Below are positions 22,428 to 23,756 of a stretch of DNA of 41,153 bases, one piece after another. Each line of letters begins with the position of its first letter. Position 1 is the stretch's first letter. The stretch comes from Bacteroidales bacterium (lineage in GTDB: Bacteria > Bacteroidota > Bacteroidia > Bacteroidales > JAADGE01), in assembly GCA_021648725.1 (NCBI GenBank), contig JAKISF010000003.1:129116-170268 (forward strand), written 5' to 3'. The translations under genes and the position numbers were made by a program. The notes beneath the pieces were generated by a model. That model was not told where the DNA came from. It did no database searches and saw nothing but the letters and a program-made list of their open reading frames with translations.

Positions 22428-23222
22428 TTATACTGATATTGCCCCTTTTATATGAGGATGTGAATTATAATTTTCAAGAGTAAAATCTTCATATTTAAAG
22501 TCAACAACCTTTTTAATGTCAGGATTGAGTTTCATTTTCGGAAGTTTCATAGGTTTTCTTGTAAGCTGTAATTTTACTTGCTCAATATGGTTTGTATAAA
22601 TATGAGCATCTCCCAAGGTATGCACAAAGTCTCCCGGTTCGTAACCGGTTTCTTGTGCAACCATCATAACAAGCAATGCATAAGAAGCAATATTAAAGGG
22701 TACGCCGAGAAATATATCTGCACTTCTTTGGTAAAGTTGACACGACAATTTGTTGTCGGCAATATAAAACTGAAACAGAATATGGCAAGGAGGTAAGTTC
22801 ATTTTGTCTAAATCGCCTACATTCCAGGCACTTACTATGTGTCTTCGGGAGTCGGGGTTTTCTTTAAGTTGTCTGATAACATTTAAAAGTTGATCAATGT
22901 GACCCCCGTTTTCGGTTGTCCAAGAACGCCATTGGTAACCGTATATTCTTCCGAGTTCTCCGTCAGGGTCTGCCCACTCATTCCAAATTCTCACACCGTT
23001 TTCCTGCAAATATTTTGTATTTGTTGAGCCTTTAATAAACCAAAGCAACTCATGAATAATTGATTTCAAATGAAGCTTTTTAGTTGTAACCGCAGGGAAA
23101 CCTTCTTGTAAGTTAAAACGCATTTGATGCCCGAAAACACTTATTGTTCCGGTTCCTGTTCGGTCTTCTTTTTTTATACCTTCTTTCAGAACTCTGTCTA
23201 ATAGGTTTAAATATTGTTGCAT
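22428..23222 (-). CDS. thyA: Thymidylate synthase
   Basis: A ThyA-type thymidylate synthase converting dUMP to dTMP with methylene-tetrahydrofolate. From ATG 23222 the protein is 264 residues, the same as E. coli ThyA, with the catalytic cysteine at Cys146 ([12 protein letters not shown]). DRTGTGT (20-26) is the phosphate-binding loop, and the ending [10 protein letters not shown] is typical. A longer frame from TTG 23231 adds three residues, but the ATG start restores the standard N terminus and numbering, so I prefer it. A -7-like element TATTTTTG lies 19 bases upstream at 23242-23249. It is first in a thyA-folA-Omp28-like unit. Confidence 0.96.
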
Positions 23223-23241
23223 ATATACCAATTTAAGTTTA

Positions 23242-23420: not shown

Positions 23421-23756
23421 ATGAAAAATTTTAACCGATTGAAAAAACTATTAATTGCAAGCAGCACAGCATTAATTCTTGTTTTTGTGTTAATGGCATT
23501 TAGTTCTGTTGATAATAATTCCGAAGGAAAAGGATGCCATGTGTACGGAAAAATTAAATTTGTTGATTACGGAGAAGATTACAAAGTGAAATTTGTGGAC
23601 TATGGTGAAGATTTAAAAATTAAATATGTAGACTACGGTGAAGACAAAGAGGGGCGTTGGAAAACAGTTGACTACGGTGAGGACTATAAAATTAAAATTG
23701 TAGATTACGGCGAAGATATTAAAGTAAAAGAAGTTGATTACGGTGAAGGGTGCTAA
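23421..23756 (+). CDS. Exported small VDYGE-repeat protein, probable 7(1) septoil-knot family
   Basis: A 111-residue protein. An N-terminal hydrophobic segment (about 10-28) after several lysines acts as signal peptide or anchor. The rest is six copies of a unit with core VDYGE, starting at residues 48, 59, 70, 83, 94 and 105. The period is 11, 11, 13, 11, 11, so the copies fall into 3+3 around KEGRWKT. Between the cores come strands of alternating Lys and hydrophobic residues (KVKF, KIKY, KIKI, KVKE). The only two cysteines, Cys39 and Cys111, flank the repeats and could form a disulfide. The repeats use different synonymous codons, so they are old and kept by selection. This matches my recollection of small beta-proteins with a 7(1) knot. 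Function unknown; it stands alone, divergent from thyA. Confidence 0.8.
   Translation: MKNFNRLKKLLIASSTALILVFVLMAFSSVDNNSEGKGCHVYGKIKFVDYGEDYKVKFVDYGEDLKIKYVDYGEDKEGRWKTVDYGEDYKIKIVDYGEDIKVKEVDYGEGC

Follow-up and report, generated by a model that had tools for sequence, protein, structure and literature searches.

What does a short gene encode that is little more than a repeat of the motif VDYGE, and could its product adopt the most complex knot known from a protein? The gene lies in a 41,153-nucleotide stretch of a Bacteroidales bacterium genome (contig JAKISF010000003.1), hereafter the window. The published reference for such a fold is the Ureaplasma protein UU089.1 (Q9PR55), which was predicted as a 7_1 knot with a knotted core at residues 27-83 (PMC9278004), a knot confirmed by the X-ray structure PDB 8IWA (PMC13352647, PMC11223836). 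Among the PDB chains that we matched, the 7_1 knot is represented by one protein with five entries. As judged from sequence comparisons, the VDYGE repeat is real and well conserved, and the protein that carries it, P0001, is a member of a known, very rare fold family.

A leader and six repeat units

The features of the gene are listed below. Conservation is given for A2, an 18-row alignment and profile made of P0001 and 17 homologues of the VDYGED type, and for 20 VDYGED-type domains.

23421..23756, + strand: complete P0001 gene, ATG to TAA, 111 aa, by ORF reading
23421..23504, + strand: residues 1-28, basic start and hydrophobic leader, a probable Sec signal by its sequence
23535..23537, + strand: Cys39, conserved, preceding unit 1 (17 of 18 A2 rows; 18 of 20 VDYGED-type domains)
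23550..23648, + strand: residues 44-76, three 11-residue units by the repeat frame (proposed lap one)
23553..23717, + strand: residues 45-99, inferred match of the Q9PR55 knotted core 27-83, mapped by hand
23562..23576, + strand: VDYGE core 1, residue 48
23595..23609, + strand: VDYGE core 2, residue 59
23628..23642, + strand: VDYGE core 3, residue 70
23649..23654, + strand: residues 77-78, two-residue break; the loop Cys of the SF type aligns with residue 77
23655..23753, + strand: residues 79-111, three further 11-residue units by the repeat frame (proposed lap two), with Trp80
23667..23681, + strand: VDYGE core 4, residue 83
23700..23714, + strand: VDYGE core 5, residue 94
23733..23747, + strand: VDYGE core 6, residue 105, with no equivalent seen in Q9PR55
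23751..23753, + strand: Cys111, final residue, conserved (17 of 18 A2 rows; 19 of 20 VDYGED-type domains)

An earlier note on this DNA had described a 111-residue reading frame with six VDYGE cores at a period of 11, broken by one 13-residue step into a 3+3 grouping, and this is what the frame holds (spacings 11, 11, 13, 11 and 11). A count likewise bears out that Cys39 and Cys111 are the only cysteines, and that all six cores are spelled differently, with six distinct 15-base spellings that differ pairwise by 1 to 4 bases. Counted from Cys39, the chain runs through 5 residues, three units (33 residues), a break of 2 residues and three more units (33 residues), and ends on Cys111. Trp80 is matched by the same Trp in 17 of the 18 A2 rows. 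In view of the six different core spellings and a layout that is fixed across genomes, a recent expansion of the repeat in P0001 was rejected. Of 20 VDYGED-type sequences, 19 have a hydrophobic leader in a Kyte-Doolittle window test, and the remaining one is truncated by a contig end. From this leader, P0001 is probably exported, with a possible cleavage site, read by eye, near Ala-Phe-Ser.

Relationship to the UU089.1 family

By itself, P0001 gave only chance-level matches in Pfam and the PDB and none in NCBIfam. Searched directly against the PDB it did not match 8IWA, profile A2 reached 8IWA at E 0.34, which is not significant, and 15 of 2000 column-permuted controls scored as high as P0001 against the printed 8IWA stretch. 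Since the direct comparison is weak, the argument is carried by a family-level link. The genome that contains the window (3.24 Mb, 66 contigs) also carries a paralogue, P0002, which has VDSF units in the same 3+3 layout; a search of this genome with P0001 recovered it at 6.4e-12, and P0002 in turn matches 8IWA in the PDB at 3.6e-10. The score between P0001 and P0002 (138) was equalled by none of 2000 shuffles (highest 65) and by none of 2000 column-permuted repeats (highest 134). To avoid circularity, profile A6 was made from seven SF-type proteins from viral contigs and contains no VDYGED member. Against the PDB it returned 8IWA at 1.6e-15 as the sole match up to E 10, and over the whole genome it returned P0002 at 4.8e-32 and P0001 at 6.2e-22. 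The assignment of P0001 to the 7_1-knot family, made in the earlier note, is supported through this profile; the profile search against the knot domain that the note had proposed succeeds by way of A6 and fails when made directly with P0001 or A2. The note's name for the knot, septoil, was absent from the one paper that was searched for it.

In the opposite direction, A2 found SF-type proteins in six other genomes among 395 (8.5e-21 to 4.3e-16). P0001 alone matched 10 of 395 genomes of the phylum at 1e-6, its own included, and the nine other matches, all of which were read, are members of the knot family and none is of the VDYGED type. FPD-type and GED-type units are mixed within single chains in L053, L057 and L117, and these mixed chains show the dialects to be interchangeable. 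P0001 has 11-residue units and a single break after unit 3; its units agree with those of the SF-type family in length, order and position of the break, with no internal gap in the core, and it has all residues equivalent to the Q9PR55 core, residues 27-83 corresponding to 45-99. Q9PR55 carries two extra residues near unit 3 relative to P0001. These comparisons support the view that P0001 is a dialect of the wider family that includes UU089.1/Q9PR55.

Could P0001 instead be a plain low-complexity Lys/Asp/Glu repeat with no fixed fold, similar to the family by composition only? The sequence is repetitive, and both AlphaFold2 models are without confidence, with pLDDT 34 from A2 (18 rows), 30 from A8 (34 rows) and no residue at or above 50 in either. 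However, the 18 rows of A2 align over all six units with zero internal gaps and conserve the Trp, the break and the cysteines, the score against P0002 exceeds all shuffled and permuted controls, and the other nine phylum matches at 1e-6 all belong to the knot family. We regard a low-complexity repeat with no fixed fold as very improbable.

Close relatives and distribution

Patterns derived from P0001 and P0003, run over genome_contigs (84,980 species), returned 103 stretches, 19 of which encode relatives of P0001; the titles of these 19 loci name groups that we take to belong to Bacteroidota. P0003, which comes from the same order as the window genome and was also read in L047, is the nearest protein among the relatives. 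The A2 alignment took 17 of the 19 loci, leaving out L045 (contig end) and L049 (shortened copy). Both cysteines are present in 16 of these 17 homologues; the remaining one, L048, resembles the SF type in carrying its second cysteine between units 3 and 4. The earlier note had staked its reading on the cysteines and the repeat count, and both are conserved across the A2 homologues.

L045 and L049 are two contigs of one genome bin that end in or near the repeat gene. L049 has the upstream genes of L033 and L045 has its downstream gene. The reading of L049 as a true short variant was set aside, since flanks split with L045 around the L033 pattern make an assembly collapse probable.

A search at 1e-4 gave matches in 13 of the 60 nearest genomes (own included). 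Reading all of these matches showed the VDYGED type only in the window's own genome and in G036; it was not found in any of the 13 other genomes of the window's genus. Profile A4 matches 35 of 295 genomes of the order at 1e-8, and the order loci that were read include a further VDYGED-type gene in G578 (L116). The distribution of the VDYGED-type gene is patchy, which may reflect gain as well as loss.

In each of three genomes, one ORF of about 200 aa carries two family domains in tandem (L123/L110 in G619, L124/L114 in G486 and L125 in G693). These ORFs are candidates for double (composite) knots with a high crossing number.

Cysteine pattern

Extraction from all loci gave 105 domain hits, 83 of them unique, and after 10 partial or odd ones were dropped 73 were left. 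In the SF type (n = 53), 42 domains have an N-terminal and a loop cysteine, 7 have neither, 3 have the N-terminal cysteine only and 1 (L056) has the loop cysteine only. The cysteine of the N-only trio lies before the start Met (L014) or at another place (L053, L072), so these domains are also without the usual pair. The two cysteines of the SF type tend to be kept or lost together, in counts that are uncorrected for relatedness. L103 is without both, and the similar L009 and L012 have both.

The VDYGED type (n = 20) has the N-terminal and the C-terminal cysteine in 15 domains, all three in 3, the C-terminal one only in 1 (L045, contig end), and the N-terminal and loop cysteines in 1 (L048), which gives 18 of 20 with the N- plus C-terminal pair. 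The loop and C-terminal cysteines occur together in 3 of the 73 domains; in these three VDYGED-type proteins the third cysteine is at column 41, not 39, and they were counted as adverse cases. Of 50 ungapped SF-type domains, 39 have the loop cysteine at column 39, and of 20 VDYGED-type domains, 19 have the C-terminal cysteine at column 73. The distance between these columns is 34, and that between the laps is 35, so that the C-terminal cysteine comes within one residue of the equivalent place. A C-terminal cysteine one lap beyond the place of the loop cysteine points to a chain of two three-unit laps closed by a disulfide. The start of lap one, the lap junction and the end of lap two would then be adjacent in space, as two laps on one ring require.

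Their conservation and co-occurrence suggest that Cys39 and Cys111 form a disulfide that closes the whole knot. Leaderless SF-type proteins such as P0002, which are presumably cytoplasmic, keep their cysteine pair, so the pair may bind metal or serve otherwise.

Proposed fold and knot type

The reading that we prefer, and consider quite probable, is that P0001 is a small exported torus-knot domain of the UU089.1/Q9PR55 type, with a two-lap fold closed by a disulfide. Once exported by Sec, the mature chain (about 80 residues) would wind two laps of three 11-residue strand-turn units each (residues 44-76 and 79-111), and the second lap would interlock with the first into a (2,n) torus knot. By comparison with Q9PR55 this would be a 7_1 knot over residues 45-99, which the sixth unit would either bury deeper or extend by a winding. 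A bond between Cys39, where lap one starts, and Cys111, where lap two stops, would then make the knotted chain a covalently closed ring. We infer the fold, the knot type, the two laps and the disulfide; the support for the knot and the disulfide is good but indirect. One result counts against two laps: units i and i+3 are not those that resemble each other most, with unit-profile similarities of 0.890 (1-4), 0.941 (2-5) and 0.813 (3-6) and the highest value, 0.969, between units 1 and 5.

The same two-lap fold could hold a knot above 7_1, for instance a 9_1 torus knot, if the sixth unit threads. PMC9278004 explains a 7_1 knot as a 5_1 knot with one more winding. By our own count, five units of Q9PR55 (the third degenerate) span the published 7_1 core, whereas P0001 and all 18 A2 rows have six, and 73 of the 83 extracted domains span almost the whole six-unit model. 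Given the extra unit in P0001, we take 7_1 as the default and allow for a higher torus knot. AlphaFold knots with nine crossings are mentioned in PMC11184937, where their family is not named. A lone short terminal unit may, however, lie outside the core, and a literature search for a 9_1 protein knot found no paper. A higher knot seems unlikely to us.

A simpler structure has also to be weighed, in which P0001 is homologous but unknotted, or forms only a 5_1 or shallow knot, its units making a beta ring or solenoid. For a relative of Q9PR55, P73136, a 5_1 knot was predicted (PMC9278004), which shows that knot type is not constant. AlphaFold2 gave no confident model of P0001 (pLDDT 34 and 30), and PMC10672856 warns that AlphaFold can misjudge topology, though it allows that 5_1 and 7_1 knots may be real. 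Against this, the units agree in length and order with those of the SF-type family, as does the break, over a gap-free core, and the cysteine swap fits two laps. We hold the simpler structure to be improbable and retain the closed two-lap knot as the working model.

A wider group that may include DUF6150

The profile of phrog_6462 matches P0001 at 2.4e-20 over residues 19-110 and P0002 at 4e-29; at E up to 1 it also matches in 4 of 14 control genomes. By these profile matches phrog_6462 is the same family as P0001. No published literature was found on phrog 6462, nor on the Pfam family DUF6150 (PF19647), of which the window's own genome encodes three proteins above the cut-off. This genome has five members of the wider group (P0001, P0002 and the three DUF6150 proteins; loci L017, L018 and L019).

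DUF6150 proteins have six units grouped 3+3 and a Trp in the break, and their units are of 13 residues; in A8 their rows show two extra residues per turn compared with the 11-residue family. A single hhalign comparison of A4 with A5 gave 79% probability (E 1.6e-5), and A2 with A5 gave only 5.7%. The dialects are bridged by an 89-aa protein (L122:102-368) that matches DUF6150 at 3.5e-9, above the cut-off, and A4 at 3.6e-10. L029 and L026 each have one SQAD-like 13-residue unit among 11-residue ones, and L029 has no match in Pfam. P0001 falls below the Pfam cut-off for DUF6150 and has units of 11 rather than 13 residues; the family is absent from its Pfam matches up to E 10 and from the 16 Pfam families matched by the 18 A2 rows up to E 1. 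The DUF6150 profile A7 did not find 8IWA in the PDB up to E 10, and profiles A4 and A6, run over the window's own genome, did not find its three DUF6150 proteins. With this reserve, DUF6150, which occurs in 82 of 295 genomes sampled from the order, is probably related to the P0001 family within one superfamily.

A bolder proposal would unite UU089.1, the VDYGED subfamily, phrog_6462 and DUF6150 in a single superfamily whose members are natural two-lap torus knots, widespread among Bacteroidota and also borne by phages. Within its VDYGED branch the cysteine partner would have moved from the lap junction to the matching place at the end of lap two, so that the disulfide closes a true 7- or 9-crossing knot. 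Taken jointly these claims are doubtful, and our estimate was lowered slightly because A7 misses 8IWA and A4 and A6 miss the DUF6150 proteins of the genome.

Genomic context and possible role

The neighbours of P0001 in the window look like housekeeping genes, and some genes of the window look like those of gliding and type IX secretion and point to Bacteroidota. A thymidylate synthase-like gene, read by eye, stands near a knot-family gene both in the window (22428-23231) and on a viral contig (L082:5835-6950), which is probably a coincidence. The survey of neighbours of homologues that the earlier note had called for yielded varied neighbours and none that is conserved: for ORFs of at least 80 aa in the 19 loci and the window, the largest clusters span three loci (L036, L037, L043) and seem to represent a single syntenic region. 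PADLOC returned nothing on six family members.

Viral-contig scans with P0001 or P0002 alone found no relative, and scans with alignments found 8, 10, 11 and 17 loci on partly overlapping contigs. A tblastn search of P0001, P0005 and P0006 against annotated phage records gave no match, and a plasmid search with P0005 gave three records. In three diverged loci, L056, L077 and L121, the knot-family gene and a baseplate hub gene (phrog_4930) are transcribed away from each other; L056 and L077 have another hub gene (phrog_5233) on the opposite side. The family gene adjoins a spanin gene and an endolysin gene in L054 and lies about 1.5 kb from a terminase gene in L051; in L055 two neighbours have no PHROG match. 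These contexts come from chosen loci (the neighbours of L050, L057, L069, L072 and L082 were left out) and do not give a rate, and some host DNA may be present in IMG/VR contigs. Phage tail genes are also found on a plasmid of Leptospira weilii, where a leader-bearing knot-family gene (L137:2435-2749) lies directly before a baseplate J gene and runs four bases into its annotated start.

The likeliest role of P0001 would be that of a long-lived, unfolding-resistant extracytoplasmic module. Where a single exported gene sits within phage modules, lysogenic conversion suggests itself. One candidate role is interference with phage infection, for instance by superinfection exclusion, a guess to which we give little credence. 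The phage relatives of P0001 offer a first way towards a role.

Comparison with known knotted proteins

The family offers dozens of short natural relatives of a 7_1 knot (83 unique domains), which vary in unit dialect and in the presence or absence of cysteines and include some tandem two-domain members. It would make testable how such knots are tied, how unit number relates to crossing number and what covalent closure does. Should DUF6150 have the same fold, there would be a structural hypothesis for a function-less Pfam entry that is found in 82 of 295 genomes of the order.

Like P0001, UU089.1/Q9PR55 (8IWA) is built of 11-residue strand-turn units ending in Asp, with a break after the third unit. 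Its cysteine lies within the break, as in the SF type, whereas the second cysteine of P0001 is at the C-terminus; and it has five recognisable units and no leader in the printed residues 7-86, in contrast to the six units, YGE dialect and leader of P0001. The phage cluster phrog_6462 is without a function, and P0001 is found instead among housekeeping-looking genes. DUF6150 shares the 3+3 units and the Trp in the break and differs in its 13-residue units. Further afield, the Knotted Solenoid (PMC13123833, likened here by its description only) is likewise a repetitive beta chain with a backbone knot, but a 3_1 knot in a homodimer, under a heading that names Brevundimonas. The trefoils described as deterministic in coagulogen 1AOC (PMC6323932) are natural knots in disulfide-closed loops of a disulfide-rich protein and differ from the closure of a whole-chain torus knot. 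Backbone-cyclised YibK (PMC8182377) is a closed, truly mathematical protein knot, as the P0001 ring would be, although it is an engineered trefoil closed by a peptide bond rather than by the disulfide proposed here. If closed, the VDYGED knot would be a natural counterpart of this engineered YibK knot.
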